From positions 1 through 64,000 of the forward strand of contig VCMS01000178.1 in assembly GCA_022539475.1 (NCBI GenBank): a DNA stretch of 64,000 nucleotides, in the 5' to 3' direction. Within the stretch, counting starts at the first letter, position 1; each line of letters opens with the position of its first letter. Shown piece by piece: positions 5,492 to 24,608 of this stretch. The position numbers and the translations under genes are program-made. This DNA comes from Gracilaria domingensis (taxonomy: Eukaryota; Rhodophyta; Florideophyceae; Gracilariales; Gracilariaceae). Under the pieces are notes generated by a model. It was not told where the DNA came from. It saw only the letters and a list, made by a program, of their open reading frames with translations, and searched no databases.

Positions 5492-5648
5492 GTGGCGTAC
5501 CCGACTGACGCTATTGGCGAACAACTGGCGCACAAATCTAGTCCAGTACGCCACTTGTACGCCAGTTGTAACCATGGGTAGCACTTTCGTATTAATTTCG
5601 AAGCATATTTTGTACGCCACTTGTAAATACCATTAGTACGCCAATAGT
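5492..5648. repeat. Cluster of direct and inverted 12-bp repeats (GTACGCCA-type)
   Basis: Four forward copies occur: GTACGCCACTTG at 5547, GTACGCCAGTTG at 5557, GTACGCCACTTG at 5612 and GTACGCCAATAG at 5637. Three reverse copies lie to the left: GTGGCGTAC at 5492, CTATTGGCG at 5511 and CAACTGGCG at 5522. The arrangement is roughly symmetric about 5540. CACTA elements carry short subterminal repeats bound by their own proteins, so this may be the subterminal region of the tnp2 element. That link is inference. Confidence 0.6.
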
Positions 5649-6016
5649 GTCAATATCGTAGTTATTAAATTCTTCTAGGGAATCGCATAACGTTTGACTA
5701 CTGGACTTGCGCTGTGCATTCCATTAAGAATGTTGTTCACCCTTATAGGTGGACCCAAACGAAGTTCTAGACAGACACGCGGCTCCGAAAGTACGCTAGG
5801 AAAGCGCCGGAACTCAAAGACTTTGAATGGGCCGAAGTTGGCCTCGACACGTACCTATAGGGGCTGGTTGTTGTGCTCAACCTCTCACGAAAGCAGAGCA
5901 TCTCTGAACGCTTCTGGCCGACGGTAGAGCGGAAGACGGGGGCACACTACTTCGGAGCTTGGTTAACGGACGATACGGGAGATAGCGTATATTATGCGAT
6001 TCCCAAAGGTGACGAT

Positions 6017-8044
6017 CTATACTCCAGGACCATCCAGCTTTCCGGACGACGCAGCTTCAGCGTAATGAACTCCAGTTATGTTGTTCACATCGGCCATCAT
6101 GTTGGCTGGCTCTCCAACAGTGCTCAAAAGCCTTCGGCGGCTATTACCTCTCTGGAACAAGTTGAGAGCTAAACGATTGAGTTCTGCGAGGAATGAGGCA
6201 AACTCAATACCCATCAAATTGATGGTTCGTAGCGGTGTGTTCTTAATAAAACAGTCTACAGTCTGGATAATGTTGTAGACTGTCATTTCATCCAATGTTG
6301 ACTGCCTAGCCAGATCGAGAGCAAACGCCAAACAGTCGCGATCGTGATAAGAATTCGGGAAAGAACTGCAGTAAATCTTACGAGAACCACTAGAGAGATC
6401 GAAAGAATACTCCATTCTTGCTGCCAACAGCTCCTCTGTGGAGATTGTTTGGCGCTCGATTAGGTTTCGAGTCGATGACAGATTTCCTGCCAGGAATTCT
6501 GAATCAAGAAGTTTCAAGGCCAAGTCATGTACGAGTTGCGTCCATGTGTGGTCATCACCGTAGTTAAACAACACATTCAAGTACGACTGGTAGTCACGAG
6601 CTGTGCTAGACTCATGTACAGTTACATGCTTCGAGAGCGTAGCCTCATTGAGTAGAGCTTTTCCTTGCATATCGAACAGTAAAACACTCAACTCATAACT
6701 TCCTGCTCTACCGACCTGGAAGTACACAACGTTGTAACCAGTGCAAACTCCAAGGCAGAACTTGTTTCCTTTCTCGTCGGTCATGATGAAGTAATAAGAA
6801 AAGGTAGACTTAGTTGAAGGAATGCCCGCCGTAGCAGTGAAGACAGTATCTGTGGTTCCATTTGTGACAGAGGGTTCTGGGAAACCGACAGTCGGTGCAT
6901 CTGCAGTTCGAACAGAGAGAACCAGAGATGTTGCTTCCACCTCCCTGGTAGACGCGCTAAACACAATCTTGAACCTGTATGTTGTTGACGGCTTCATTTT
7001 CCCAGCCTCTATGCCAAGGGGCTTCGTATTTCCCGAAACCGAGAAGATATTCGATTCTTCTGAGTAAAACAAAGGATTGTTGATGACACTAGAAGAAAAG
7101 AAATCTGGAACTGAAGGTTCCAAAAGTTCGTAGGTCCATGTTATATTAGATCCTGCCCCCACATTTATGATTGTCTGCTCGTAATGCGGGACATGGTTCC
7201 AGTCCAGTACGCTGTCATCTACATTGGTCAGCTGAAGAGAATAATCATCTAGATGCGGTTGGGAACCACCATTTTGCACAATGACTGTCAAAGATTGAGC
7301 GCTTGATACTCGATCCATCCCCTTTCTTACAATTAACTTGTACTGGATGAAGTTCACGTCCCCAAGCGCTTCCACTACGTTGATAGGAATGGTGAATGAC
7401 GACGTGAAAGAGTCTGGTACAAGAACATCGTCACAAGTACTGGATTCTTCGGGGGTGAAGTTGTTCTTCGCCGACTGACGACAAAGCCATTCGTACGAAA
7501 GACCGGAGTTACGAGAGCCGGAGTTACGAGAGCCAGATAGTACATCGGGATCATACGAGTTATTGCCATACGAACTCAGTGTAGTATGACTGTTCACTGT
7601 AATAGATTCTTCCGCTTCCCGAATGACTGCAACCAGAGGCGAGGGATCAATGAGAACGTATGACTGAGCTTGTCCTAAAATCATATCACGCTCCCGCATC
7701 CACACCTTAACGGTTACCGTGTGATTCCCGGTTGTTAAACGTTCTCGAGGAACAACGTATTCCCACCCCAGTCGCGCTGGAGTGTTGGTTAGTTCACCAA
7801 CTGCTGGAGTGCCAGTAGTATTTAGAGCTGAGTACCGCTGAACTTGGCCAAATGCTTCCCACTCGAAAATCATGCTAGAGTTTCCCACGTAGCACTCTCC
7901 CGGAGGTGTTACGACCGCCGAAAGTCGAAGAAGAGTAGCGGGACTCGCAATGTAGCGATCCGGAGGCTTCAAGATAAATGCTCCAATTGAAACAATATGC
8001 TCGCGAAGCAAGAAGATTTCGTTCTCCAAAACTGTTCCACTCAT
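6017..8044 (-). pseudogene. REJ/polycystin-1-like extracellular fragment
   Basis: The frame encodes about 675 residues from the first ATG. It stays open a further 60 bases upstream without an ATG, so a 5' exon or the true start is missing. The middle part has the REJ (receptor for egg jelly) look: VNSHTTLSSYGNNSYDPD followed by LSYEWLCR, then beta-rich Ig/PKD-like segments and several N-glycosylation sequons. Such modules lie on the extracellular side of polycystin-1-like membrane proteins. No membrane span, GAIN/GPS or PLAT domain follows; the frame stops soon after EAASSGKLDGPGV. A tandem SGSRN duplication is visible where the DNA repeats gagttacgagagcc. It is either a truncated gene flanked by mobile DNA or one exon of a larger gene. 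Confidence 0.55.
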
Positions 8045-8555
8045 GAACAGAGATATCTTTAGTGCGTACAAACCTGCTTCGAATCACTCCGGACGGAGCT
8101 CAAGCGTCTGTACATGATAGTAGCCGAATCACGCTTTATTGAGATCCGAGGTTTGTCACGATTTGGGCCTCCTCCATAGAAACGATGCGCTGGTGAGATG
8201 GAGTGACAGCACTGACCAAGGAGCTGATGGAATGAAGCTGGACGCTCAGCAAATGTTGAAGCTCATTCAAGCTATCCCCTACATCTCGACTTCGCGCTGA
8301 GTTCTCGCTGGACTTTCTTGCAGACGCTTTGTCGGATCATCCGACTCTGAGGTAAGTCTAGAGAAGGCGAACTTGGAATCTGAATGCTTCGAATCATACA
8401 TACAACATCTGCCAGTTCGCACCGCATTGCAAATTTATTAATATTATTCAACTTTTTAATATAATTCATTCCCATGAGTCAAGGTCCATGGCAACTTGAC
8501 ATCCTGCTGCACAGCGCAAGTAGGCAGCGGGGAATCTCTCTCGCACATCTTGCAG
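8045..8555. other. Spacer between REJ fragment and mobile element
   Basis: No gene seen. AT content rises towards the right, and the first dispersed palindrome of the element (8556) marks the provisional left boundary. Confidence 0.5.
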
Positions 8556-8567
8556 GACATGTATGTC
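8556..8567. repeat. Dispersed palindrome copy 1
   Basis: GGACATGTATGTCC (8555-8568): GGACAT/ATGTCC arms around GT. Leftmost copy, noncoding. Confidence 0.7.
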
Positions 8568-8602
8568 CACCTCACATCCTTTCCATTCAAAACCTTCACA
8601 AT

Positions 8603-8650
8603 TTATTTCATTTCCAAACAATAAAAGTAACGCCACTCTACGCTTGAAAC
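8603..8650 (-). pseudogene. Short coding repeat, copy 1 (fragment)
   Basis: Translates as VSSVEWRYFYCLEMK then stop. It matches the last 15 residues of the segments at 8903 and 9669 (EW-YFHCL-M). Only the 3' end of the repeated coding unit is recognisable. Confidence 0.45.
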
Positions 8651-8902
8651 ATCAGTTCATCTACACCTTTTTATCACGTTGAGTTGCATGGCTCATTCCT
8701 CGTAATAGAGCAACATTGAATGACAAATAAAGCCACTATGTCATAACTAACGTTGCCTAAATAACTGCACAACACTTTCACACGTTCCTATACTAAGTAG
8801 AACCAAACATTTGCAATGAATTAACTTCAACTTTCTCTAAACATGTACAATCCATATATGCTCTTAAATCAAGGTTTAGATATACAAAATTATTTGCCTA
8901 TC

Positions 8903-9106
8903 TCATTTCATTTGTAAGCAATGAAAGTAACACCATTCTAGATCATGTTCAGATAATGAATTGCTTCTTGTCTTAAACTTCTCTGTCAATTTTGCTTCGG
9001 CTTTAATGTTTCGAATTAACGCTTGGCAGAAACAAGAAAATTTAATCTGCTCATTGCACGGCATTCGTGAGCACCACCACCGCATCTGTGTACCTAGATT
9101 GCCCAA
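8903..9106 (-). pseudogene. Short coding repeat, copy 2
   Basis: An open stretch of 67 codons with no good ATG at its head. It ends in LSEHDLEWCYFHCLQMK. The segment QALIRNIKAEAKLTEKFKTR aligns residue by residue with copy 3. The shared stop position and conservative substitutions argue that this was translated, possibly as the last exon of an element protein. Function unknown. Confidence 0.45.
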
Positions 9107-9224
9107 AGGTGGGCGAAATTTTTTCTTGTAAAATAGTATACAGTTAATAGCAGCAAGTCATTTACGGAATTAGTTTAGGTCACAGACACCATCCTGGACC
9201 AGAGTGCGCAAACCAGTACTGCGA

Positions 9225-9236
9225 GACATATATGTC
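9225..9236. repeat. Dispersed palindrome copy 2
   Basis: Perfect 14-bp palindrome AGACATATATGTCT at 9224-9237, noncoding, between short-repeat copies 2 and 3. Confidence 0.8.
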
Positions 9237-9613
9237 TAAGCCAAAATTTTTGCTTTACAGAAACCACACACAGATATCCGCGACTGCAAGGAGCACGCAA
9301 AAGCTGCTTTCACATGCTGCTTCCTATTTTCCAGAGCAGATCTTTAGTCACCAAGCATCTGACAACGCAGCAAAGCAAGAACATATCGCTTTGCAAGCAG
9401 AAAATCAATTTATCTTCCACCGACTACTAAGTTTTTGGAAAGCAACTTTGTGTTAAAAGCCCACAAATGATAGTTGTGGTAATTTTTGTCATACGTACAA
9501 GTCTTTACTGTTCGTCTTTGCAGCGTAAGAAGAGAATTTATCAAGAATGCTTGAAGGTATAATGCTGCCTTTCCAAGGGGAGATCAAAGAAATAAATTGC
9601 GATCAACAACCAA

Positions 9614-9625
9614 GACATATATGTC
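9614..9625. repeat. Dispersed palindrome copy 3
   Basis: Perfect 18-bp palindrome CAAGACATATATGTCTTG at 9611-9628, about 40 bases beyond the stop of short-repeat copy 3. Confidence 0.8.
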
Positions 9626-9668
9626 TTGAGTAGTATTCTTTTAATTAAAAGACAACTTTGGAATAAAA

Positions 9669-9884
9669 TCAGTTCATATTCAAACAGTGAAAATAAGACC
9701 ATTCTAAATCATGCTCTGAAACGAAGCTCTCTCTCGTTTGATACTTCTTGGTCAGCTTTGCTTTGGCCTTAATATTCTGAATTAATGCCTGGTAAGCGAG
9801 CAAAGCAATATAATAGCCATGACCGCCATTTCGTAACGATCGTCCAATAACTCTAATGCCGCTATTTCTCTGTTCATGGGACAC
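9669..9884 (-). pseudogene. Short coding repeat, copy 3
   Basis: An open stretch of 71 codons beginning with a non-ATG codon. It carries QALIQNIKAKAKLTKKYQTR and ends VSEHDLEWSYFHCLNMN. About two thirds of its C-terminal 40 residues match copy 2. It lies 3' of the transposase-like gene on the same strand, so it could be a displaced terminal exon. No known domain. Confidence 0.45.
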
Positions 9885-9962
9885 AGTGTTCTTTGTGTCG
9901 AGTTCAACGTAAACTCTTGGATTATACGAGGGAGAGCAGTGCTTGTGGTTTTCAATATGGAA

Positions 9963-12900
9963 TTAGTCACTTACGATTGTTGACTCCGCTAATGCCCACC
10001 ATAGAGTGTTAACACAGGAATTAAAAAGCCCACATGAAAAATCGTACACGATAAACCTTGGGATCTTTGGAAATCGGGACACAATCATATCCAATACCAC
10101 TTTTGGACCTTCGTTACGATAAAGGACTTTAATACCAAGCGTTACAGGACTAGCACATGCACAAGATATTGTCATAGCGCCGGGTGTAAAACTGTTTTGC
10201 TTTTGAAAGAACTGTTTTGAACATAGACCAAAGACCCCCATTTCAGATTCTCCAACTTCATCGTTATTGAATGGGAGTGGTCTGACTTGCTCACGTCCTG
10301 GAAAGTATGATCCAGTATAAAGAGCTTCATCTAAACTTGAAACTTTTTCCAATTTGTCTGCTCTGTATTTGTTAGACATTCTTTGTAAGAGTTCGTCTTT
10401 GTTTGTTGAACTCCATTCTTGAGCATATGTAAATGCTGAGCTTTTTCGAGGAGGATCTTCATAATATCCGTAAAACTTCTGTACGCAATCGTGACAACGT
10501 AGTAGTATACAGCCCATTGCAAACCGCATTTCTCTTCCCTTTTCGACAGATCCATGAAGCTCAATTTCGACAATTGTCTGTAGTCCTGCTTGAAGCAAAC
10601 GGGATGTGGATAGAATATTGGTTTGTTCCACGGCATTAACCAGCGTCTCGGGATTGCTAAGAACATAGAGAGTTGATTGCGTCTCTGGTTCGAGACATAT
10701 ATGTCCCAGGCACCAAACTGCCGGCAGATCTGATCTTCTAATAAACTGACATACTGGCCCTTTGAAAAACATAGCAAACATATGAAACAACTCTTTCCTT
10801 CGATCACTTCTTCCCTGGGAGCCCAATAAGTCCGAATTGAGCCAAGGTATACCTGTATTCTGTAACCTAGATTCGTTTTGCAGCAAATCAAGCTTGTTTG
10901 AAATTATGTCTGTAATCGAATGAGGATCCGATCCTAGAGCCCCAAAAGTTTCCAATGTGGTTGGGGAAAGACCAGAGATAAAATAATGGAGTGGTAGCAG
11001 AAAACGATGTAAAAGAGAAGCTTGATCGAAGAAGGAGCTTGCCAGCCTTCGAATTGAGAATAAGTGGCAATGATTACCAATATCATTTGAGGTATCATTC
11101 GGAGTACTACCGCATATGGATTCCGTACAAAACGTGTGAGGAATAATATTGTCACTAACGAGTCGAATACACATGACAAATTCTTTCACATTTGTTCTCG
11201 TGCAAGTCCCAATATTTCCTTTCAATGTGGACATAAACAATTTGACCGCTGTGTCCTTTCGTATGAGTCCGGTTAGTGGTCGATATGTGCTCCCTTTGGA
11301 CCTGGCCATTGACCGCGGAAGTGGCTCACATTTCTGAGAAATATTCCTAAGCCTAACTTGTTTGTTCTTCAGATACCCCAATTGGATACCGTCTATACAT
11401 ATGATCGGAATAGTTTCAGAAGAATCTTCACAAGTGTCGCACCTAAACAGTGCGACATCTGGTTCCATCGTCATGAGCTTAATCATCAAGATACACATGT
11501 CCTGAATGGTTCGAACCGATCTGCATGGAACAGTACTGGAGCCAAAATATCCAGCATTTACGTTAGCTTGCACCTGTGAATGGAAGTGTTTTAAACGACT
11601 GTTCAATGTCCCGTTTCCTAGCACGACTCCGATAAGTTCTTGTCGTAACACTGCATGAGTCCCGGCAGTGCACATGTTCAACAGCAAAACAAACTGTTCT
11701 CGTCCTTCTGGTTGAATTGGTGAGTTACATGTTTGATTACTACAAACATATTCTTCTACATGAAGTGCACAAGGTCCTCTTGTACACATGAGCACCCCAT
11801 CTTTCCAAAGTTTTTGCGAGCTTTCTTGTCTCCGAGAGCCACATTTTTGACAGTGTGTGGGTGCATGTATCTGAAACGGTTTCCCCATAGATGCTAAGTT
11901 GCAAGCGTTCAGGTCTACCTGTATTGCTTTCGAGCAACTTACTGGTGGTAGGGGTAGATAGGACAAAGACTTCGTATAAAACGGAGTTCCGAACACCCCT
12001 TCTTCTTCGCCCATACTTTCGACTTTCAAAGTGCTTTCTGAGTCATCACTGCGAGCCTGTAGTTCGGCTTGAACTGCACGAGTGTGTTCACATCCTCCAT
12101 GATATGCTGTGTCACAAAATGCACAAATATATTGCCCATGGCGCATGCATCGAACAGGAATCATGCAAAGCACATCCTTGACGGAAACTTTTGAGACAGA
12201 AGACAATACGCATATTCTATTATTAAACAGAATATGAGCATTAGAACGGGACATATATGTCTCATGATGAGATCCAAATATAGTTTTATACATCTCGGCT
12301 AGAAGTTGCCCAACATCAAGGGGCCTGATCCCACAAGTACTGGCTATACATTGAAGAAATCCATACAATCCTTTAACATGTAGGCATTGGTTCTCTTCCG
12401 GCTGTCCATCTGTGCCAAGGATCCGAAATTGAGTCAGTCCAATACATGTGCAAAGAACCACACCATCGAGTGATATCCATGTGCAGGCCACATGACGTTC
12501 CATTGCGTTACATTCATCTATTCCAACCTGTGAGAACTGCGTTCTTGTGCAGAGACATAGAACTGGGCAGTTTGGAACCAGTTGAAACATAGACGCAGCG
12601 ACACGATCCACATTTCGCAAGAGCTGCCCAAGATAAGTTTTCAAGTTATTTTCCCATCCAGGTGATAGAGGAACGGCCAAAGATCGAAATCGCAATCCTT
12701 CGAAAATTCTGTGAATGGCCTTTTCGATGCCTCCTAGAGCGTGAGAAAGAAACTTCCACACCATCGTCTTCAGGGACTCGGGGATTTTGGCTCTCTGCTC
12801 TGCCGCCCCAGCAGCATGACGACGCCCACCTTTCCCATGTTTCGTGCCTGGTCGTGATTGTAACAGAGTTTGATAGGAAAAGATAACATCATTGCTACTT

Positions 12901-13211
12901 AAGTAAACAGTTTCATTGACGAAATCTTCATCTGCTTGTAGTTCCTGCTTTTTCTGATTGAGCTCTCTCATAGCGGTGTTCATTTGAATAATTGTTTGCA
13001 GGTCAAAGCCGAAGGCAGGAATTGCTTGATAAGATTCATTTGTGGGGACAGATATGTCTTGATGTTGCTCTGTTCCATCATTTGTGGCAATGCAGGGGTG
13101 TGGTATTGTATAGGGTTCGTTCGATAAATCTTTCCCTCCGGTATCCAATTCTATCTGATTTACCGCAATGTTCATGCGATGGATATCAGACTCGGTCCAT
13201 TCAGAATCCAT
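9963..13211 (-). CDS. Cys-rich transposase-like protein of the large element
   Basis: A 1082-residue protein starting MDSEWTESD. The frame stays open upstream to 13472, but that extension reads through a 62-bp tandem duplication and is probably not coding. Several Cys/His clusters suggest zinc binding, among them CPVLCLC, CAFCDTAYHGGCEH, CQKCGSRR with CALHVEEYVC, and FRCDTCEDSSE. The segment IPIICIDGIQLGYLKNKQVR looks like the first Asp strand of a DDE/RNase H-like catalytic core. The pattern recalls the CxC-cluster KDZ transposases or the domesticated HMGXB3-like core, without a confident match. It is divergently paired with the helicase across 480 bp. Dispersed palindromes at 10694, 12250 and 13047 lie inside the gene. 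Transposase role is inferred. Confidence 0.6.
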   Translation of the reverse strand: MDSEWTESDIHRMNIAVNQIELDTGGKDLSNEPYTIPHPCIATNDGTEQHQDISVPTNESYQAIPAFGFDLQTIIQMNTAMRELNQKKQELQADEDFVNETVYLSSNDVIFSYQTLLQSRPGTKHGKGGRRHAAGAAEQRAKIPESLKTMVWKFLSHALGGIEKAIHRIFEGLRFRSLAVPLSPGWENNLKTYLGQLLRNVDRVAASMFQLVPNCPVLCLCTRTQFSQVGIDECNAMERHVACTWISLDGVVLCTCIGLTQFRILGTDGQPEENQCLHVKGLYGFLQCIASTCGIRPLDVGQLLAEMYKTIFGSHHETYMSRSNAHILFNNRICVLSSVSKVSVKDVLCMIPVRCMRHGQYICAFCDTAYHGGCEHTRAVQAELQARSDDSESTLKVESMGEEEGVFGTPFYTKSLSYLPLPPVSCSKAIQVDLNACNLASMGKPFQIHAPTHCQKCGSRRQESSQKLWKDGVLMCTRGPCALHVEEYVCSNQTCNSPIQPEGREQFVLLLNMCTAGTHAVLRQELIGVVLGNGTLNSRLKHFHSQVQANVNAGYFGSSTVPCRSVRTIQDMCILMIKLMTMEPDVALFRCDTCEDSSETIPIICIDGIQLGYLKNKQVRLRNISQKCEPLPRSMARSKGSTYRPLTGLIRKDTAVKLFMSTLKGNIGTCTRTNVKEFVMCIRLVSDNIIPHTFCTESICGSTPNDTSNDIGNHCHLFSIRRLASSFFDQASLLHRFLLPLHYFISGLSPTTLETFGALGSDPHSITDIISNKLDLLQNESRLQNTGIPWLNSDLLGSQGRSDRRKELFHMFAMFFKGPVCQFIRRSDLPAVWCLGHICLEPETQSTLYVLSNPETLVNAVEQTNILSTSRLLQAGLQTIVEIELHGSVEKGREMRFAMGCILLRCHDCVQKFYGYYEDPPRKSSAFTYAQEWSSTNKDELLQRMSNKYRADKLEKVSSLDEALYTGSYFPGREQVRPLPFNNDEVGESEMGVFGLCSKQFFQKQNSFTPGAMTISCACASPVTLGIKVLYRNEGPKVVLDMIVSRFPKIPRFIVYDFSCGLFNSCVNTLWWALAESTIVSD
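10694..10705. repeat. Dispersed palindrome copy 4 (in CDS)
   Basis: CGAGACATATATGTCCCAGG at 10691-10710. Read on the minus strand it encodes LGHICLE; the codon phase is GGA CAT ATA TGT. Confidence 0.8.
12250..12261. repeat. Dispersed palindrome copy 5 (in CDS)
   Basis: CGGGACATATATGTCTCATG at 12247-12266. It encodes HETYMSR on the minus strand with phase GAG ACA TAT ATG, different from copy 4. Confidence 0.8.
13047..13058. repeat. Dispersed palindrome copy 6 (in CDS)
   Basis: GGGACAGATATGTCTTG at 13046-13062. It encodes HQDISVP with the third possible phase (CAA GAC ATA TCT GTC). Arms are intact and one central base differs from the consensus. Confidence 0.75.
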
Positions 13212-13245
13212 TGGAGTAGCCACGAAAGGAGAGCAGTGAGACAAA

Positions 13246-13369
13246 GTGGAATGAATGAATGAACAAGGAAGGATATGGGTTTGCTTCTTCAGATGTGGGG
13301 CAGATGCGTGGAATGAATGAATGAACAAGGAAGGATTTGGGTTTGCTCCTTCTGATGTGCAGCAGATTC
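13246..13369. repeat. 62-bp tandem duplication in the divergent promoter region
   Basis: Two copies begin at 13246 and 13308 with GTGGAATGAATGAATGAAC and share most of the next 40 bases (the GGATnTGGGTTTGC stretch). They lie immediately upstream of the transposase-like gene's ATG and may carry regulatory or transposase-binding sites. Confidence 0.75.
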
Positions 13370-13550
13370 CAAATCGTATTCTCGGTGCCTCTACCTGTAC
13401 ACGTACGATAAATACTGACATCATGCTGGCACTGCTGGCCACCAGAACAGGATGGAAAGCCTTTGGCGCCAAAATTCAAAACCACTTACACTATATTATC
13501 CAAGTTAGGGAGCTTTGTTCTAGAAACATATGGCACAGAAAGTGCAGATC

Positions 13551-13587
13551 CATCCTTTCTCAAAACCTCAGGTTTTGAGAAAGGATG
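13551..13587. repeat. 37-bp inverted repeat with a one-base spacer
   Basis: The 18-bp arm CATCCTTTCTCAAAACCT (13551-13568), spacer C, then its exact reverse complement (13570-13587). It sits between the divergent transposase and helicase genes and covers the first ATG of the open helicase frame, supporting a downstream start. A cruciform or dimer-binding operator-like site is possible. Confidence 0.85.
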
Positions 13588-13669
13588 ACATGCTACCAAC
13601 GGAGGCAAATATCTCATGTTGCTCCCTCTCTTGAGCAAAGCGTGTACGTAATATTCGTGTGCCCCATCA

Positions 13670-13681
13670 GACATTTCTGTC
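13670..13681. repeat. Dispersed palindrome copy 7
   Basis: CAGACATTTCTGTCTCGAG at 13668-13686, lying 12 bases before the helicase ATG at 13693. The N4 centre (TTTC) is the most diverged. Confidence 0.65.
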
Positions 13682-13692
13682 TCGAGAACGTC

Positions 13693-15072
13693 ATGAAAGA
13701 TATTCTGGATCCTCTTCAACGCCGCACAATGGAGGCCTTCAAGAGTGGAAAATCTATTGCTCTCCTTGGCTGTGCAGGAAGTGGAAAGTCGGTGCTGGTT
13801 CAATCTATGATTCAGTACGCATTAAAAAATGTTGGAGAGTATCCTGTAGTGATTGCATGTTCCCATACTCACCAAGCTTCAAGACCAATCGGAGGAAGAA
13901 CAGTAAGCGCAGTTTTTGGTATTCATGCTAACTGGGCTCTCTCGAAAGAGAAGCTTCTTGATGAAATTAAAAAGAACAAATGGAGAATGAATGAAATTCG
14001 TCAAGCTCGTGTTTTGATTATTGAAGAAGTTTTCTTGCTCAACTCAGAGACTTTGGACGCAATCGATGCGATACTAAGATATTTAGTTCGAAATGATGTA
14101 GACTGTGCTCTACCATTTGGAGGCCGACAAGTAGTTCTTTCAGGAGATATCTTCCAATTGGGGCCAGTTGAGCAATTTGATTCTCTCCCATCGGAAAATC
14201 GATACGCTCATCTTTCCCGTCCTTGGTCTCTTACTTTCGGTGGTTTTGGGACGGGCATTGTATCCATGCTTTCCGCAAATCATAGACAAAAGAATGATAA
14301 AGAGTTCTTTGCAATTCTCCAACGTATTGGTCGTGGAAAGGTTACACAAGATGATGTCCACCGCATAAATAAGACAAGCAAAGGAATCCTGAAACCACCT
14401 GGATCTCACACAAAGCTGTTCCTTTATCGTTCACAGGTATCCGAATATAATGATCGTGTTTTAGGTCGATTGTCTGGAAAACTGTATCATTGCACTGCTC
14501 GAGACACATATGTCCCAATATCTTCTGCGGGTCACATTTCTCACGGAGTGCTGAGAGAGAGGCTTCACAACGCGGCGCCAGAAGTTGTCGACGTCAAAAT
14601 AGGAGCTGCGGTGTTGTTAACTAGAAAATCGGGCTCATTTCTTCCTGGGGAAAAGTTAATTATATCCGAAGTTACGCTTGGAACATCAGCACGAGTACAA
14701 TATCTGAAATATAGGCTTGAGGATGGCTACGATGAATATATTCTACGGAAGGAAACTTTTTCGATTCGTGCTAGGGATGCATCTATTTTGGCGTCCCGAG
14801 AGCAGTTTCCAATAATACCTGCATATGCCGTAACTATTCACAAGTGCCAAGGTCTAACGCTCCAGAATGTTGCTGTTGATTTCATTCCGAGCCGTTGGAA
14901 ACCGAACGGTATGGTCTATGTTGCCCTTTCGCGATGCAAGTCATTAAGCGGATTATGGGTCAGCGGTCTCACAAAAGAACATATTCAGTATAGTAAGGCT
15001 GCTGAGGAATACATGAAATACATTCAGAAGCTTCAAAAGCATTATCCTGGAAGGGTAATTTTGGATAACTAA
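13693..15072 (+). CDS. PIF1-like SF1B DNA helicase of the large element
   Basis: A 459-residue protein from MKDILDPLQRRTMEAF; the longer frame from 13585 would start inside a hairpin. Helicase motifs appear in order: Walker A GCAGSGKS, Walker B region VLIIEEVF, motif III GGRQVVLSGDIFQLGPV, motif V AVTIHKCQGLTL, and motif VI VYVALSRCKSLSGLWVSGL. The Walker B Asp-Glu pair of most PIF1 proteins reads Glu-Glu here. PIF1-type enzymes unwind DNA 5' to 3' and are known passengers in mobile elements. Length fits a minimal helicase core with no extra nuclease or Rep domain, so this is not a Helitron RepHel. It probably assists transposition or repair of the element; palindrome copy 8 lies within it. 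Confidence 0.88.
   Translation: MKDILDPLQRRTMEAFKSGKSIALLGCAGSGKSVLVQSMIQYALKNVGEYPVVIACSHTHQASRPIGGRTVSAVFGIHANWALSKEKLLDEIKKNKWRMNEIRQARVLIIEEVFLLNSETLDAIDAILRYLVRNDVDCALPFGGRQVVLSGDIFQLGPVEQFDSLPSENRYAHLSRPWSLTFGGFGTGIVSMLSANHRQKNDKEFFAILQRIGRGKVTQDDVHRINKTSKGILKPPGSHTKLFLYRSQVSEYNDRVLGRLSGKLYHCTARDTYVPISSAGHISHGVLRERLHNAAPEVVDVKIGAAVLLTRKSGSFLPGEKLIISEVTLGTSARVQYLKYRLEDGYDEYILRKETFSIRARDASILASREQFPIIPAYAVTIHKCQGLTLQNVAVDFIPSRWKPNGMVYVALSRCKSLSGLWVSGLTKEHIQYSKAAEEYMKYIQKLQKHYPGRVILDN
14503..14514. repeat. Dispersed palindrome copy 8 (in helicase CDS)
   Basis: CGAGACACATATGTCCCAAT at 14500-14519, encoding ARDTYVP on the plus strand. Confidence 0.8.
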
Positions 15073-15370
15073 CACTGAGGCCAACCATGTAGTAAAACCG
15101 AAAATCCGCTCAGAACAGTTGTTTGATTTGAACTGTTTGTTTGAAATGATAAGATAAGATTTCCAAGTCTTTGTACGGATACGTTTATGTTTTATTTGAA
15201 TCTCCTCTTACAAATGTGTGTCAATTATAAAAAATATATATAGTCGATACTGTCCCTGAGACACATATGTCTCGGATATTTCCAAAATGCGGCTTTTGCT
15301 CAGAAGCAATTTCAACTAATTTATGAATGTATTTTTCAGTTTCTCTTTTGTTCACTCTCTTTTCGCATCC
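15073..15370. other. Spacer between convergent element genes
   Basis: AT-rich spacer between the helicase stop and the end of the accessory ORF. It contains palindrome copy 9 and no gene. Confidence 0.6.
15260..15271. repeat. Dispersed palindrome copy 9
   Basis: TGAGACACATATGTCTCGG at 15257-15275; arms GAGACA/TGTCTC are perfect. Noncoding. Confidence 0.8.
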
Positions 15371-16222
15371 TTAAATTTTTGTGATATAATTTCTGTGCCA
15401 TATGAAGGCCCTGCTTTTCAGCAAATGTGAAACTGTAACTGGCATTTTCTCAAAATGTTTCTTTCTGAGATGAGAAAAGCTTTTCAAACTGTACCATTCC
15501 AAAAACGGATACCTTATGCTCAAGATCTCACAGTGAGACATATTTGTCTCACCACGTGGTTGAATTACATGTTTTGGATCTTCGAAAAGCTTGAAATCAC
15601 AAAGTTCACATGCATAACTGATATCCATATTGTTGTTCTCTGAAACTGGACCTTCTACCAGTGTTTCCCGTACCATAATTGCTGTCCCTAGATCTTTAGA
15701 GAATTCGCTTTTCACCAGTACTCGACTTATAGCACTTCGTTCCCAAGTAACAGGATACCTCACGATCTGATCCGCCTTAAGGCTTAAATCTTTCGTATTC
15801 TCAAGCAGCAATGGGTTAACCAATTTTTCGAAATTCACTAACAATGAGTGCAGAGGAATCCTTTGGCCCAGTATGTAAGTGGCGAATGGATCAACTGTAC
15901 CGACACCAAGCTTTTCATCTTCGGTATGAACGTCATTTCTATATATTCCATTCTTGAATAGAGACCGATTTGTACATTCTTTTCTGCAATCTAAAACCTT
16001 TCTGCAATTTTGAAGTCCTTCTAATGCAAAAGTTTCCATGTCTTCTCGAATGCTGGTATTCCCAGTTTCGTTCATTAACATAAATGATAATAGTGCGATG
16101 TTGGTCTCCTTATGGTTCTTGCTCGCCTTTGAGACCTGGGTCGAAATTCGTTCATTACGTAAAAGTTGGTAGGGTTCTGTGTTGCTTCGTACAAGCTCAA
16201 GAGACGGTAGTTCTAAGATCAT
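15371..16222 (-). CDS. Element accessory ORF B with a partial zinc-finger-like motif
   Basis: 283 residues, unrecognised. Near the C-terminus YACELCDFKLFEDP and a later FSHLRKKH give a CxxC...H pattern that may bind zinc. The start overlaps the end of accessory ORF A by 26 bases in another frame (ATG within catgatctta). The frame is open 12 codons above this ATG, so the two ORFs may be joined by an intron or frameshift into one protein of about 590 residues. Palindrome copy 10 falls inside it (GETNMSH). Confidence 0.55.
   Translation of the reverse strand: MILELPSLELVRSNTEPYQLLRNERISTQVSKASKNHKETNIALLSFMLMNETGNTSIREDMETFALEGLQNCRKVLDCRKECTNRSLFKNGIYRNDVHTEDEKLGVGTVDPFATYILGQRIPLHSLLVNFEKLVNPLLLENTKDLSLKADQIVRYPVTWERSAISRVLVKSEFSKDLGTAIMVRETLVEGPVSENNNMDISYACELCDFKLFEDPKHVIQPRGETNMSHCEILSIRYPFLEWYSLKSFSHLRKKHFEKMPVTVSHLLKSRAFIWHRNYITKI
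15537..15548. repeat. Dispersed palindrome copy 10 (in CDS)
   Basis: The longest copy: GTGAGACATATTTGTCTCAC (15533-15552), 8-bp arms. It encodes GETNMSH on the minus strand. Confidence 0.8.
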
Positions 16223-17120
16223 GTTCTTCTTTTGTAGCTGAGTAGGGAATCAACGTCATGTATTTCATGCCATTTACATTTCCACCGTTCTTCTTTTTCA
16301 TGGCTTTCTGCTTCTGAAATATCCTTGTCACAATTTTTTCACTAACACGAGCATTCACAGAAGCTATTGTCCTGGGTTTCTTGCTACTAGAATGTAGAGT
16401 TACTGAGCTTGCATCCAAAAGTAATGACAAACAAGTGGCAACGATGTGTCGGGATAGTTGAAAAGTAGACAGAACTGCTTTTTTCTTCCTAACAGCACCC
16501 AAGTTCAAGGTGCCTGGCAGAGAAACCAATGTTTTAAGAGATTCTCGAACAGGAAAGAGTTCTGCAGAACCTGGACGTGGCATCAGAGTCAAAAGCGGCT
16601 CTCTTCCGGGAGTAGAAATGGGACAATTAGTACGACCCACAGGATTTGATATTCGAGACATATCTGTCCCGCGAATGGTTTGATTGAAGAACGGAGTTTG
16701 AGGCGAACTGTCCGCAATCTTCAAAGGTTTTGACGCTATGTGGCCACGTTCTATTCGATTTAATTCACCATCGTTTGATTGAATGGGAGCGTTACATATA
16801 TTTCCGTTGCCTTCCATTTCCAGAAGATCAATGTCCACAATTTCATCAACATCATTGCAGTGCGGAAGTTCAGAACCGACCAAACAAAATGTTTTTGTCG
16901 ACGAGGAATGCCCTTGAATTCCTCTTCTGCCACATTTTGCATAAATTGCAAATCCCATTGATCCCAATGATGGATTTCGACATGTTATGTGCTCCAAAAA
17001 TTTTGAAAGATTGACGAGTGTTTTCAATCCATTCTCGACAGTATCTTTGAGAGCCTTATCCTCTCTTGGTAAGAACGAAAGTATGAATGACGCACAATCA
17101 TCGGTTTGGCCGCGTTTCAT
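16197..17120 (-). CDS. Element accessory ORF A, unknown function
   Basis: 307 residues from the first ATG (MKRGQTDDCASFILSF). The middle is polar and low in structure, with the basic run AVRKKKAVLS and KKPRTIASVNARVSEK. No family recognised. It is on the same strand and immediately upstream of ORF B, overlapping it. Palindrome copy 11 lies inside (RGTDMSRI). Its place in the element suggests a DNA-binding or accessory transposition protein, but that is a guess. Confidence 0.5.
   Translation of the reverse strand: MKRGQTDDCASFILSFLPREDKALKDTVENGLKTLVNLSKFLEHITCRNPSLGSMGFAIYAKCGRRGIQGHSSSTKTFCLVGSELPHCNDVDEIVDIDLLEMEGNGNICNAPIQSNDGELNRIERGHIASKPLKIADSSPQTPFFNQTIRGTDMSRISNPVGRTNCPISTPGREPLLTLMPRPGSAELFPVRESLKTLVSLPGTLNLGAVRKKKAVLSTFQLSRHIVATCLSLLLDASSVTLHSSSKKPRTIASVNARVSEKIVTRIFQKQKAMKKKNGGNVNGMKYMTLIPYSATKEEHDLRTTVS
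16657..16668. repeat. Dispersed palindrome copy 11 (in CDS)
   Basis: CGAGACATATCTGTCCCGCG at 16654-16673, encoding RGTDMSR on the minus strand. Confidence 0.8.
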
Positions 17121-17475
17121 GATCAATAGAGTTATCTAAACTTCTGGCGGACGTTATCATGGAAGAAGACTAGTTTCTGTTGCTCTTTAACTTTCGCAAA
17201 AGGACGTTATCCACCTTCGAAGAACGGTTGATATTTAGTGTACGGGTCATCAACGGTTCTCAATGTAATAATAAAGATTTTCACCAGAAACGGTCGAGAA
17301 ATTCAAAGCTTATTTATCCGTTAAGCTTTAAATTAATAGCCATTTTAATGTAACGGTCATGGTTTACTTTTCAACGTATATTTTAAGGACTGTTTGATGC
17401 CAGCAGCTGCATGTAGGATGTTCCAGAACTGTTCTTATATTTATTTGCAATTTTTTGCTACTGAAAAGAGTTTGA

Positions 17476-17487
17476 GACATACATGTT
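17476..17487. repeat. Dispersed palindrome copy 12 (degenerate)
   Basis: TTGAGACATACATGTTTAGG at 17472-17491. The right arm has one change (TGTT for TGTC). It is the rightmost copy and marks the provisional right end of the element. Confidence 0.5.
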
Positions 17488-17570
17488 TAGGCCAGAAACA
17501 TTCATGCTGGCAACAGTATTGAGCCAACAACCAATTCTTATCCACAGTGTCTTTGAGCAAAAGAAAAATT

Positions 17571-17815
17571 GCAGAAGCAGCCAAAATGATTTGATTGGAT
17601 CTGTGAGATTTCATGATACATTTCATTGGCTGCAGGAAGCCGTCAGTGGCCTTAAAGCCGCAGAAAGAACATTATTGGTTACTGTACGAGAGAAATCGCA
17701 GAAGCAGCCAAAATGATTTGATTGGATCTGTGGGGTTTCATGATACATTTAATTGGCTGCAGGAAGCCGTCAGTGGCCTCAAAGCCGCCGAAAGAACATT
17801 ATTGGTTACCGTACG
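17571..17815. repeat. 127-bp tandem duplication
   Basis: Copies start at 17571 and 17698 with GCAGAAGCAGCCAAAATG and differ at only a few positions, for example the change of TGTGAGATTTC to TGTGGGGTTTC. The low divergence implies a recent event. It lies just outside the last palindrome. Confidence 0.88.
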
Positions 17816-19017
17816 CCGCATGGGGCTTTTTATGGCGACAAATATCATTTCATTGGCCGATTGACGTGTAAAGTTAATTAAATTATTTCTCTATGTTTGT
17901 TTGTATTACTCGTGTACGAAAAATATTACTTGTATAATATCAAAGTGACAAAGAGAATTACGCCAAAAATGATATTCGATAAAACGAGGAAAAAGTGATG
18001 AGAAAAAAGAAATTAGAAATAGATGAAGATCAAATAAATTTGGTTTATATTCGTGTAAAATATTTAACTAATAGATGTTTTGTTTTGTCAATATGGATAG
18101 ATAAAATGTAGGGAATGTCTTTGGTGAGTGTTATTTTAAGTTGTTATATAACATTAATGCTTTAACGAGAAATATATGTTGGTGCTTCTGATATAGACGC
18201 ATTTTTAAGGAACAAGTATTTAATGGTTATATTTAATGGTTAGTATTTAACATAAGAAAAATGTCAAAAGGTTTAGAAGTGTGACAGTCACGTAGAGCAA
18301 GAAAGTTGGAATTAGTGGCTCAGATCCAATGAAATCGTGTCCCTGTTCCACATTGTTTTCTTTTCGATTTCCATGTTTTTCTACTAAGGTCAGAGGTCTA
18401 CATTTACTTTTGCGGCGATGCGGCCGTTCTACGACCAATCACGTTTTGTCTGCGGCCACCGCAGTTTCCAAGGTTCAGAGTGGATGTGGACGGGGGGGAT
18501 GTCATGCTGATGGACGCTGTTCTTGGACATGGACATTAAATTAAACAAATTTTCTTCTTGAGAACTGACACATCGGTCAACTGGACGACGTGTATAATGT
18601 CCAGATATCCATTCTTGTGTTCGTTTTGTATTCATCGCCGTCGGATCAACATTCCTCCCGATGATACTGCGGTAACGTAGCTTGTTCTAACGGGAACTCG
18701 AATCGAATCATCCTCGAGTTATGAGGCTTCAAACTGGGTTCTCACAGTATGGGCTCCAGTTAGGACGCAGTCTCCCAATGTGCTTCTTGAAGTACGTTGA
18801 GGTGTCATGAATAAGAAACAGCTGCTTATTCATTGAGGACAGAGGTATGTGAGCAAGTTTTTGTTTGGCGATCCATCTGTTCTCAAGGATGTTATCCATA
18901 GCCAACCCTTCGACACAAAAACGTGGGAATCTATACTTTTCCATATACTCTAATTTTTTGCTGAGAGACCAGATACATATCGGTCCGGAACGGCCTGTTT
19001 CGTTCTACTTTTACTAA
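17816..19017. other. AT-rich intergenic DNA
   Basis: About 1.2 kb without a supported gene. Short minus-strand frames at 18429-18635 and 18729-18944 show no recognisable motif. Confidence 0.5.
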
Positions 19018-19347
19018 CTAGTCGCCGTTTTGATTCATTTCTTTTATGATTTGGAATACAGCTTCTCCACATTTACAACAACCGCTTTCTGGACTGTTAC
19101 AAAATCCGGAAGCCTCTAGTGCGTTCGACGAGGTAAGCACGAAGCACTTCTTCTCATTTATGCGCTCTGATGAGTACATTATTAAACAGTCGTTTGATCC
19201 TAATGAAAACAACTTTTCACTATAACCCTGACGCGCCACTTTTAAATGAAATCGATCCGTAGTATACAATGCTAACCAGCTGTCATTCATTGCACCTTCG
19301 AGCTCATACACAGAGATTGCGCTCAACATGTAACCGCGCAGTTGCAT
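19018..19347 (-). CDS. Hypothetical protein, 109 aa
   Basis: ATG start, MQLRGYMLSAISVYELEG. It ends with a small Cys cluster, CNSPESGCCKCGEAVFQ, which might bind metal. It lies 51 bases downstream of the 175-residue gene on the same strand. In this intron-poor setting the two could be separate genes or exons of one. Nothing recognised. Confidence 0.35.
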   Translation of the reverse strand: MQLRGYMLSAISVYELEGAMNDSWLALYTTDRFHLKVARQGYSEKLFSLGSNDCLIMYSSERINEKKCFVLTSSNALEASGFCNSPESGCCKCGEAVFQIIKEMNQNGD

Positions 19348-19398
19348 TTATCTGCTATAGGTTTTGCTGAAGCAGAAATTGTGCTACTGCAAAAAGTT

Positions 19399-19926
19399 CT
19401 ATCTCGAAAACTTCCAAACCCGAACAGTTCTCATTAAGCCAGGCACCGCAGTGTCTTCAAATTGTACGTCAGGGGCAGAACCGTCCGGCAACTCTCTTTG
19501 CACCTCATCGTAGTTACAGCAAGCGCAGCTCACTACGGCAACGCGCTCTCGAAATGAGCGTTCCCTCAAGTCCGCCTCCAAAAACCGTAAACAAGAAACA
19601 GCTTCTTGTATAGATGTATGGCAATGCCACATGATGACAACAACACGTGAATTGCATTCAACATCAATAGTAACGTCCTGGACGCGAGCTGCTTTGGTCT
19701 GAAGGTTTTTGACGTTGTCCCAATCCCCTTTACGCATCATAGGATCGATTGACACACATTTCCAAGAGGTACGGAATGCAAACAAGGCAGCTGTTCGTGG
19801 AGTTACGCCGTCACCAACGGCGACAAGCGTTATATTGCGAGCTGAGAATGACAGCACACCATCTTGTTCTTCATGATCAGGACCATGTTTGACGAGGTAT
19901 TGTCGCACCGCTGCATAAGCACTCAT
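19399..19926 (-). CDS. Rossmann-like hypothetical protein, possible SAM-binding fold
   Basis: 175 residues from the first ATG (MSAYAAVRQYL). Coding-like sequence (FSQIPQELAES) continues 13 codons upstream without an ATG, so a short 5' exon may exist. The core ITLVAVGDGVTPRTAALFAF followed by WKCVSIDPMM has the glycine loop and acidic strand end of a Rossmann nucleotide-binding unit, as in SAM-dependent methyltransferases. A later RVVVIMWHCHTSIQEA strand fits the same fold. No catalytic motif IV of a known methyltransferase was seen. Its role is unknown. Confidence 0.5.
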   Translation of the reverse strand: MSAYAAVRQYLVKHGPDHEEQDGVLSFSARNITLVAVGDGVTPRTAALFAFRTSWKCVSIDPMMRKGDWDNVKNLQTKAARVQDVTIDVECNSRVVVIMWHCHTSIQEAVSCLRFLEADLRERSFRERVAVVSCACCNYDEVQRELPDGSAPDVQFEDTAVPGLMRTVRVWKFSR

Positions 19927-20097
19927 CGATTCAGCAAGTTCCTGTGGTATTTGGGAGAACGTCACGATGTCAGATCTCGAGAAGTGGATGCCGTTTTTTA
20001 AAGGCTTCGTTGGAAACAGCTTTGCTCTTCTTACCTTTCCATTCGGAAATATCTGCGACGCACGGGATGTGATAGTGATGGATGTTTTTGTTTTGTG

Positions 20098-20826
20098 TTA
20101 GAGCTTCTGAATCTGAACATGACATAGATGTTGTTGTCTACTTTTACAAGCGTTGTGTTCTGGAGGAAAACATGATAACCGAACCTTTAGTCTTGTAAGA
20201 TCTTCAGCGCAATTAAGCGCAAGAAATTCGTCAACATATCTGAAGCTAAGGAGCTGAGGTGTAGCTTGATCATCTTGTTCACAGCGTTGCTCCTTCCTTA
20301 CCCGTCTAATTTCCCTCAACCGTGCGACATCCTCGCTATGTTTTGCACGTTCAATACGTCTAACGGCGTTATCCCGTTTAAGCTGCCTAATAGCATGCTT
20401 CATATTAATACATTCACACTGAGGAGAAACAAGTGAGATGTACTCCCTCCACCTGCTTATATCCGCCTTGTATGATAACGCATACTCGCCGGCGCTGTGC
20501 GGCGGATGCAGCACTCTCCCCAATGTGGAACGGAAACGTTCGTGCAGCTGCGCAGAATGCGACTGCTTGGTCTGATAGAGATAAATCTTATATATGTCAT
20601 AAACGCGGGTGTAATGCGTCGTACTCGGCTTAAATGCATAGTCGTATATCGTGCGTCGAACGTCATCGCGAATGGACGGGCACTCGCTTTGATCCGGTAC
20701 AGGCCACGGCGAGTACGCCCTCGCTTTGTTCCCGTTCATGGTGCTACGACAGAAGCGGAGTGTGCTCTGTTGCGCTTCTTGTGATTGACGAAGACGCTTG
20801 CGACATGTACAGATGCTGGCCAGCAT
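20098..20826 (-). CDS. Hypothetical basic protein, 242 aa
   Basis: The start is taken at MLASICTCRKRLRQ. The frame is open further upstream to a GTG at 20895, but that part is encoded by a 39-bp hairpin and is unlikely to be coding. Tyr/Arg-rich middle (RRTIYDYAFKPSTTHYTRVYDIYKIYLYQ) and a charged, probably helical segment (KHSEDVARLREIRRVRKEQR). No family recognised. Confidence 0.4.
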   Translation of the reverse strand: MLASICTCRKRLRQSQEAQQSTLRFCRSTMNGNKARAYSPWPVPDQSECPSIRDDVRRTIYDYAFKPSTTHYTRVYDIYKIYLYQTKQSHSAQLHERFRSTLGRVLHPPHSAGEYALSYKADISRWREYISLVSPQCECINMKHAIRQLKRDNAVRRIERAKHSEDVARLREIRRVRKEQRCEQDDQATPQLLSFRYVDEFLALNCAEDLTRLKVRLSCFPPEHNACKSRQQHLCHVQIQKL

Positions 20827-20854
20827 ACTGCCTAGTAGTGCGCCGAGTAGGCGT

Positions 20855-20911
20855 GATTGTTGCACCGTCGGCGCCGCCGACGGTGCAACAATCACTGATT
20901 GTCAATCAGTG
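20855..20911. repeat. Two adjacent inverted repeats (39-bp odd hairpin plus 19-bp hairpin)
   Basis: GATTGTTGCACCGTCGGCG (20855-20873), spacer C, then its exact reverse complement (20875-20893). The next hairpin starts on the last base of this one: CACTGATT-GTC-AATCAGTG (20893-20911). A run of about 16 A residues follows at 20925-20940. On the plus strand the order stem-then-A-run, and on the minus strand T-run-then-stem, would suit a transcript boundary. Confidence 0.85.
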
Positions 20912-21102
20912 AGAAAAAGCAGTGAAAAAAAAAAAAAAAACGAGACACACGGACACCGTGTACCGCGAGAATCTCTTCGAACAAACAGCATAAACATACG
21001 GAGTTCGTAAGAAATACGGAGTTGGTAAGAATTACGGACTTCGCACCAGAGAAAGGACGAGATTGCACAAAAAAAACAGCTGCGAGTCTCGAATGAAACC
21101 GG

Positions 21103-22212: not shown

Positions 22213-22406
22213 ATCGACGCACCTCGAAGCGCAAAAACGCCCCCCCCCCCCGCGCCGCAACACGTCGACAAGCCGTCGCGCAACATAAGCGCCGCGTGCG
22301 TGGTAACGGCCACGCGGCGGGCACAGCGCGCGGCAAGCGGCGCCACGGGCGCGCTGACGCGCCGCGCTTACAGCGCGCGGCGCGTGCGCCCGATTTAGAC
22401 ACCGCC

Positions 22407-23786: not shown

Positions 23787-24135
23787 ACTTGCGCACGCCC
23801 AGGAGCGCTTAGGTGGGAGTAGCCAAGTTCGCGAGTGTCATGGAGATGGCGATGGCGAACTTGCGAGGAGCAATTCGTGCGCATGGCTCGCCCAGCTCGC
23901 ATTCTCGCGCGTGCGGGGTGCTAGCTCTAAATGTGCCACGCGCACACGTGTACGCATTCCCGCGCACTGTGTCCCGTCAAGTCCTCAGCACTCCTGATCA
24001 GCTCCGTCATGCTTGCCTTGCGACTCGCAAGTTGCGAGGGCTACAAGCCTTGTAGTACAAGAGTATCCTTCTCTAGCCTTCCTCACGATCTACCTTCCCA
24101 CAATACCTTTGTACCTTCGTCATCATCAGATTACA
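23787..24135. promoter_or_regulatory. Hairpin-rich spacer upstream of the BASS gene
   Basis: It holds CAAGTTCGC (23824-23832) with its complement at 23855-23863. It also holds CTTGCGA-C-TCGCAAG (24017-24031) overlapping CTCGCAA-G-TTGCGAG (24024-24038), then CTACAAG-C-CTTGTAG (24041-24055). The three one-base-spacer hairpins are mutually close, and the first two are alternative folds of shared bases. Regulatory role inferred. Confidence 0.55.
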
Positions 24136-24567
24136 ATGCATAACCTTCGCCATCGAAGCGCTGCACTGTTTCCCACTGATCTCGCCGTATCTTCCACTCA
24201 ATCGCCACAAAAGCCACCCCCTTCTTCCATCACACGCGTTCGATTTGCATCCGTTTTCCTGCTGCTGTTCTCCGTCACCTTTGCGCTGATATCGCTGGCA
24301 TCTCAGCTCCGAGCAGGCGCCACAAATAGCGGTCGGCACACATTTTACATCCCAACCCTTGCGTACAGACGTCCGCAGCCGTTTGTATCCCCCAAACCGC
24401 CCACACAACGCATTCATCCCACCACAGAACAAGTCGTCAACGCCGCGTATGCTTTCTGTTCCACCTTATCTCCGCCATTCCCCAAGCACTGCTCATACAT
24501 GTACGGAGATCCACAACCTCAATCACATCCACGCGACTCGGCCACAGCACGAATTATTGCAACGTGA
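24136..24567 (+). CDS. Small putative membrane protein
   Basis: The frame from MHNLRHRSAALFPTD gives 143 residues with one strong hydrophobic segment, RFASVFLLLFSVTFALISLA, near residues 36-55. A Pro/Thr-rich luminal-type region and three Cys follow. Layout suggests a type II membrane protein. It converges on the PPR gene with 41 bases between them. No family recognised, and it may not be real. Confidence 0.35.
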   Translation: MHNLRHRSAALFPTDLAVSSTQSPQKPPPSSITRVRFASVFLLLFSVTFALISLASQLRAGATNSGRHTFYIPTLAYRRPQPFVSPKPPTQRIHPTTEQVVNAAYAFCSTLSPPFPKHCSYMYGDPQPQSHPRDSATARIIAT

Positions 24568-24608
24568 AATCAGCGACACATTTCCATATCCGTTGTGCAA
24601 GCAACAGC

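Follow-up and report, generated by a model that had tools for sequence, protein, structure and literature searches.

A family-specific palindrome, a putative docking site, in the transposition genes of a giant KDZ-like transposon of Gracilaria domingensis

The locus and its transposon family

The first 64,000 nucleotides of contig VCMS01000178.1 of the red alga Gracilaria domingensis (assembly GCA_022539475.1), hereafter the window, carry a derivative of a giant transposon in which the palindromic word GACA-N4-TGTC is scattered through a block of three genes, encoding a KDZ-like transposase, a PIF1-like helicase and a third protein, ORF3. The best-supported description of this word is that of a predicted dimer-type DNA docking site, peculiar to one transposon family and under selection. 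The 11 exact sites and the one-base variant at 17476 of the original prediction are all present, but its statement that none lies elsewhere in the window was incorrect, as a twelfth exact match occurs at 45688, a single stray at about the chance level. The 12 exact matches in the whole window compare with a mean of 1.37 (standard deviation 1.09) over 100 shuffles, and no shuffle gave as many as 12. The sites (given without strand) and the open reading frames (ORFs) around them are listed below, together with the state of each site in other copies of the element (C30, C118, C124, C7, C99 and C242).

8556–8567: palindrome site 1, GACATGTATGTC; also in C30
9225–9236: palindrome site 2; also in C30
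9614–9625: palindrome site 3; exact in C30, C118 and C124; in C117, 110 bases left of the same match
9963–13211, minus strand: KDZ-like transposase ORF, 1082 residues from the conserved MDSEWT start to a premature stop; other copies continue
10694–10705: palindrome site 4, within the transposase coding region, phase 1; an exact match in six of the seven copies, C242 not being alignable
11490–11501: site with a single mismatch; C118, C7 and C99 have an exact palindrome at this position
12250–12261: palindrome site 5, within the transposase coding region, phase 2; exact in C30, C118, C124 and C7, with a single mismatch in C99 and no longer present in C242
13047–13058: palindrome site 6, in the transposase ORF (N-terminal portion); an exact match in C118 and C124, with a single mismatch in C30
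13585–15072, plus strand: PIF1-like helicase ORF, 495 residues (PF05970, E = 1.6e-22); the start shared by the copies lies about 36 codons in
13670–13681: palindrome site 7, in the PIF1 ORF upstream of the copies' shared start, probably 5′ leader
14503–14514: palindrome site 8, within the PIF1 coding region, phase 0; an exact match in every one of the seven copies
15260–15271: palindrome site 9, in the spacer where PIF1 and ORF3 converge at their 3′ ends; exact in C30, C118 and C124
15371–16222, minus strand: C-terminal piece of ORF3, whose frame is split in the window copy
15537–15548: palindrome site 10, within the ORF3 coding region, phase 2; an exact match in C30 and C242, with a single mismatch in C118
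16197–17126, minus strand: N-terminal piece of the split ORF3
16657–16668: palindrome site 11, ORF3 coding sequence, phase 2; exact in C30, C118 and C124
17476–17487: one-base variant; exact at the same place in C30

Six of the 11 exact sites fall in coding sequence, counted from the starts common to the copies, and the motif does extend across genes and spacers alike, as originally described, some sites lying well inside genes and others where two genes converge. Near site 9, C7 and C99 contain another exact site instead, displaced by 17 columns. A motif-independent search with the PIF1 ORF protein recovered the window copy, C30 (99%), C118 and C124 (82%), C7 (71%), C99 (68%) and the decayed C242 (48–72%, in three pieces), as well as weak distant PIF1 matches, while ORF3 as the query returned the same seven places and no others. 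Exact sites in the aligned regions number 11 in the window copy, 11 in C30, 10 in C118, 8 in C124, 8 in C7, 6 in C99 and 5 in C242; copies of the element without the motif were not encountered, all of them carrying site clusters.

The element had been taken to be 9 kb long, but two complete relatives with 7-bp target duplications measure 25.5 and 23.9 kb. These are C30:184128–209626 (25,499 bp, GGACGCT on both flanks) and C118:63101–86961 (23,861 bp, flanks GTTGATC, left end ambiguous by one base), the only two copies for which both ends were available. No inverted repeats or duplications were found adjoining the 9-kb block, since the element's left ends are situated about 15 kb beyond it. The C30 element begins and ends with CAATAG..GGTTC, and its ends form an imperfect inverted repeat (26 of 45 positions, ungapped). 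Its left block contains a 502-residue ORF, for which Pfam gave nothing but coiled-coil-type matches below the cutoff, next to a Ulp1-type protease (PF02902, E = 4e-17, scanned in a 99%-identical stretch of C481), the middle of about 10 kb holds a 1084-residue REJ-domain ORF and others, and the right block consists of a 1251-residue transposase-like ORF, PIF1 and a 582-residue ORF3. C118 has the same outer blocks with largely different middle genes, one middle ORF being common to both (about 40–54% in pieces, and inverted), so that this appears to be a family of cargo-swapping giant transposons, in which the middle, as seen in these two copies, presumably represents cargo. The window copy is a derivative shortened by truncation and by an internal deletion: it corresponds to positions 5540–5889 and 13053–25499 of the C30 element, the left block and 7.16 kb of the middle being absent. 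A premature stop cuts its transposase short, and its ORF3 frame is broken in two, the frames being open in other copies; an intron in the transposase gene was considered and rejected, since the frame of the other copies is open there and the window copy therefore has a stop. The limits of the copy and further features are as follows.

5679: leftmost point at which the window copy resembles the C30 element (C30 element position 5540)
6028–6029: junction at which C30 has an extra 7.16 kb (element 5890–13052)
6017–8071, minus strand: remnant of a REJ-domain gene from the middle of the element (PF02010, E = 3.3e-22); the gene lies inside the C30 element
17657–17678, plus strand: subterminal motif GCCGCA-N11-ATTGG
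18432–18476, plus strand: right terminus of the element, ending CCAAGGTTC, common to C30, C118, C124, C7, C99 and C323
18435–18456, minus strand: GCCGCA-N11-ATTGG at the right end

The REJ-domain (polycystin-type) gene is carried in the transposon at positions 11814–15107 of the C30 element, and the window keeps its remnant after the 7.16-kb deletion; another middle ORF (C30 element 8020–8880) contains a match to the C-terminal domain of UvrD-like helicases (PF13538, E = 6.5e-9). At the point where similarity to C30 ends, window positions 5500–5690 and C481 (L033 3390–3460) have like flanks (..TTAAATTCTYCTAGG), and the window stretch contains TACGCC-type repeats, perhaps the end of another transposon.

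The contrast originally drawn with subterminal repeats holds in that the palindrome is internal, but the family has a subterminal repeat of its own, GCCGCA-N11-ATTGG. With fixed spacing and often repeated, it is found at the ends of C30, C118, C124, C7 and C99, and also of C59, C69, C323, C117 and C154; tracing it led to the true termini and to noncoding relatives, although alone it is only moderately specific (67 strand-hits versus 45 for the reversed control).

The 1082-residue protein, previously noted for its Cys content, is a KDZ-like transposase shortened by the stop in the window copy. The translations contain D.FH..NH..CS..YNP and EQRNS, which by eye may correspond to residues of the KDZ catalytic region, and the C-terminal region, again compared by eye, is presumably KDZ-like. 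The Pfam KDZ profile PF18758 matched none of the element ORFs scanned, and its lack of a match in the genome is weak evidence, as the control matched nowhere either; because the 7-bp duplication fits and the profile does not match, we call the element KDZ-like rather than KDZ. It resembles members of KDZ (Kyakuja, Dileera, Zisupton) in its transposase of more than 1000 residues, 7-bp duplication (within the KDZ criterion of 7–8 bp), length of tens of kb and accessory genes, and differs from them in that PIF1 and ORF3 adjoin the transposase. In the parts of the literature that concern us, a 7-bp target duplication is given for Kyakuja (PMC12730594) and giant elements with accessory genes are described from Ectocarpus (PMC12477816), and the KDZ passages of these two papers do not mention a dispersed palindrome. 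The TET/JBP gene, found in fungal KDZ members only, had no Pfam match among the element ORFs scanned, which are a subset of all ORFs, and the open-licence literature on KDZ together with PIF1 yielded one unrelated fungal genome paper. Two other classes were rejected: CACTA/EnSpm elements need a 3-bp duplication and CAC..GTG ends, and Helitrons, suggested by the PIF1 gene and the constant right end, were dropped on the 7-bp target duplications and are expected to encode an HUH nuclease-helicase fusion, whereas PIF1 here is a separate 495-residue ORF. No transposase homologues were obtained at E 0.001 (5528 candidates; 7991 scored in another search), at E 1 no solved structure matched the C7 transposase or ORF3, and those matching the PIF1 ORF are PIF1 helicases. 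Apparent partial degenerate copies of the 3′ end of the transposase gene were seen by alignment, the shortest by eye, at window positions 8580–9026 and 9650–9780.

Specificity and conservation of the palindrome

The original chance figure for GACA-N4-TGTC, 0.14 per 9 kb, is lower than its rate in the genome, about 0.24 per 9 kb. The 77.9-Mb host genome contains 2041 matches versus 1564 for the reversed-word control, only a mild enrichment, and the eight fixed bases alone are not element-specific. The longer forms are specific, with 50 genome places versus 7 in the control for GACATATATGTC, 30 versus 5 for GAGACANNNNTGTCTC and 57 strand-hits versus 1 for GAGACANATATGTC (some places being counted on both strands). 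Letter order matters as well, since four clade representatives contain 34 GACA palindromes versus 0–3 for each of 11 other orders of the same letters. The genome-wide scan thus did not reveal a similar motif density in host DNA, the extended word being family-specific. These counts bear on the idea that the word is a host-factor binding site, exploited by the element or used to target it, with which the few sites elsewhere, such as one near the start of an unrelated ORF in C5, would agree; many of the 50 places, however, lie in the transposon family, and selection would not be expected to keep a site read by a silencer alone, so that we consider a host factor improbable.

Motif positions are kept while flanks drift, as had been anticipated. 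Between the window copy and the 81%-identical C118, eight of the nine gap-free sites are exact (two of the 11 sites not being alignable) and 71 of 72 fixed bases match versus 0.71 in the flanks, the background being 19% (1512 of 7836 windows kept all eight bases at the corresponding offsets). For the more distant C7 and C242, the corresponding values are three of nine sites versus a 2.9% background and three of seven versus 4.4%. Within coding sequence, taken from the copies' shared starts, codons for the same amino acid whose third base is a fixed site base were identical in 22 of 23 cases versus 2012 of 3475 elsewhere (P = 6e-5; with a single reference common to all of them, these comparisons lack independence). 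This breaks down into 8 of 9 for C118, 7 of 7 for C7 (P = 0.003) and 7 of 7 for C242 (P = 0.009); with full ORFs the count is 25 of 27, which includes the probable 5′ leader site at 13670. Between C30 and C7 the proteins are constrained (ratio of nonsynonymous to synonymous change, dN/dS, 0.07 for PIF1 and 0.12 for ORF3; not computable for the transposase) and synonymous differences are saturated (proportion pS 0.74–0.76), and as the site codons are nevertheless kept, it is the DNA word itself that is conserved.

The same data address the suggestion that the sites are a by-product of conserved peptides, or of chance. A left-block site does encode TYMS in C30, C481, C117, C111 and one frame of C269, but coding sites in the block of transposition genes occur in all three phases (0, RDTYVP; 1, LGHICL; 2, HETYMS, GETNMS and RGTDMS), and noncoding sites exist too. 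Reading phases, synonymous sites and the letter-order control refute this explanation for the right block, and overall we give it hardly any weight.

The flanks extend the motif, although with a weaker consensus than first noted, to approximately YRRGACATA per half-site. Among 68 half-sites from the four clade representatives, Y is found at −3 in 58, R at −2 in 61 and R at −1 in 67, followed by GACA, T (51) and A (59), with no preference further out. The outermost R and Y are independent of each other (Fisher P = 0.71), with A...C in 12 of 34 sites. This speaks against pairing in RNA and favours a dimer that reads the two half-sites. A hairpin in element transcripts, for which the word could form a short stem with a 4-base loop, was accordingly rejected for want of covariation, its outer positions being unpaired and one site sitting between convergent genes, and its probability appears very small. 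Beyond the site the flanks share no similarity, so the sites are not tandem copies.

The spacing has no fixed period, as stated before, but in some copies the gaps are more even than expected by chance: the window copy (coefficient of variation (CV) 0.46, P = 0.007), C30 (P = 0.006), C118 (CV 0.28, P = 0.0001) and C124 (P = 0.002), that is four of the six copies tested, which are related in pairs. Mean gaps in the right block are 810 bases in the window copy, 892 in C30, 873 in C118, 1127 in C124, 1076 in C7, 1503 in C99 and 924 in C242.

Distribution along the element and possible function

Rather than covering the whole element, as first proposed, the motif marks the transposase/PIF1/ORF3 block, is sparse in the Ulp1 block and is absent from the middle of about 10 kb. 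Left, middle and right parts hold 3, 0 and 11 sites in C30 and 1, 0 and 10 in C118; along C30, the first 5 kb contain three sites, the next 10.5 kb none and the last 10 kb 11. At the right-block density of about 1.2 sites per kb in both copies, the empty stretches in C30 and C118 have probabilities of about 1e-6 and 2e-8. The CpG ratio of the right blocks is 0.83 and 0.85 versus 1.01–1.10 in the other parts (0.90 and 1.11 in the left and right window flanks), and CpG transitions between close copies are about three to four times as frequent per position as other transitions, a combination that would be expected of a methylation target. Low G+C and CpG depletion were both confined to the right block in C30 and C118 and were not seen in the left block or middle.

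The analysis establishes that the word is specific to the family, selected at the level of DNA, symmetric but unpaired, and distributed in this way; from these features we infer a binder and its effect. The options raised earlier (binding, compaction, silencing or methylation site) can be narrowed to a putative protein-binding site and no further. Our tentative preference is that the palindromes are docking sites for a symmetric, probably homodimeric protein of this one family, serving to protect the machinery block from silencing. An element-encoded protein, for which ORF3, the 502-residue left-block protein and the transposase are candidates, would bind the palindromes (half-site approximately YRRGACATA) as double-stranded DNA and keep the transposase/PIF1/ORF3 block accessible and expressed against host silencing, each site reaching over a few hundred bases. 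Such short-range action would explain why genes and spacers are covered alike and would let single sites turn over while density stays at about one per kb. Anti-silencing or activation is favoured because the sites run through genes and spacers but leave out the middle, and because CpG depletion is limited to the right block. A more specific version, in which the sites form a distributed self-address code by which an element protein tells engine from cargo and host DNA and keeps only the engine active, is possible but rather doubtful.

Several observations weigh against the proposed docking and anti-silencing role. CpG is not protected near sites (0.80 within 100 bases versus 0.94 beyond 450), and the depletion may come from the low G+C of the block (0.41). 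Only three of nine sites remain in place between the window copy and C7, the codon test is not significant for C118 alone (8 of 9 versus 1139 of 1578, P = 0.24), and spacing is not significantly even in C7 (P = 0.15) or C99 (P = 0.18). Noncoding relatives with sites (C69 and C323) would be equally compatible with a function in mobilisation.

Dimeric regulators typically bind palindromic operators, and the sites could instead be operators for an element-encoded repressor, or boundary or nucleosome-phasing marks, that time expression of the machinery genes. Sites do lie on both sides of the divergent start region at about 13200–13600, but others are found well inside coding sequence and where two genes converge, so that they are not restricted to starts, and we regard this explanation as unlikely.

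Repeated short motifs recognised by an element protein, one that influences methylation as well, are a feature of En/Spm (CACTA) elements, whose TnpA sites are subterminal; the present palindromes differ from these in being internal, with a different repeat at the ends and a target duplication of 7 bp rather than 3. The proposed docking would follow the anti-silencing logic of VANC. According to the relevant passages, Arabidopsis VANC21 binds YAGTATTAY in noncoding parts of VANDAL21, with methylation lost through whole elements (PMC5735166), and VANDAL/VANC likewise involves a short family-specific motif in many copies within the element (PMC5735166, PMC10398659). VANC motifs are there described as non-palindromic, noncoding and accumulating as tandem repeats (PMC5735166), whereas the word here is palindromic and single-copy per place, with about half of its sites in coding sequence. 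No VANC relative turned up, no search having been aimed at one, and no dispersed palindrome of this kind was found in the open-licence literature. The family offers a clear case of a DNA-recognition signal maintained in the protein-coding genes of a mobile element and lacking from its cargo. If an element protein binds the palindrome, the system would serve anti-silencing or self-recognition, with a grammar unlike that in Arabidopsis, and could provide a sequence-specific tool; given the site list, the docking question can be tested directly.

Sites beyond the full copies

Extended-word matches yielded 33 palindrome loci outside the core regions (C118:85721 was not counted), of which one is the left block of the C30 element and one a core fragment in C117, the near-identical C182 and C513 being counted twice. 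As most of these loci were found via the motif, its presence is by construction and only positional agreement is informative. Such agreement was found in the left-block stretches of C30, C481, C117, C269, C111 and C118, which have an exact site at the same place, and in the noncoding relatives C69 and C323, 67% identical over 1839 bases, where one site is exact at the same place in both and a second is one base off in C323. Most of the remaining single sites are chance-like (without the R/Y flank) or lack a family assignment.

Five of the 33 loci lie within 2.5 kb of GCCGCA-N11-ATTGG (P = 7.5e-8). This joint occurrence of palindrome and terminal motif in noncoding relatives, with the shared site of C69 and C323, points to transposition-machinery sites, at which the transposase, PIF1 or an accessory protein would shape, synapse or unwind the element or block self-insertion. 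The ends, however, have their own repeated motif, C30 and C118 are dense on one side only with an 11–14-kb stretch lacking any site, and some ten internal sites would seem more than synapsis needs; we see this as a minority possibility, second to anti-silencing. If the palindrome does act in mobilisation, it would show how giant cargo transposons recognise themselves beyond their ends.

Viral contigs contained no relative of the transposase or ORF3; six of them carry GAGACATATATGTCTC. A repeat of at least 1.2 kb borders family pieces at a recurrent junction (L033 7865–9070, L007 2104–2962, L038 1–1203, L057 2650–3201 and L047) and may be a nested transposon or an alternative end. Beside the decayed C242 copy (L031/L032) lies a tandem array about 2.9 kb long with a period of about 161 bases.

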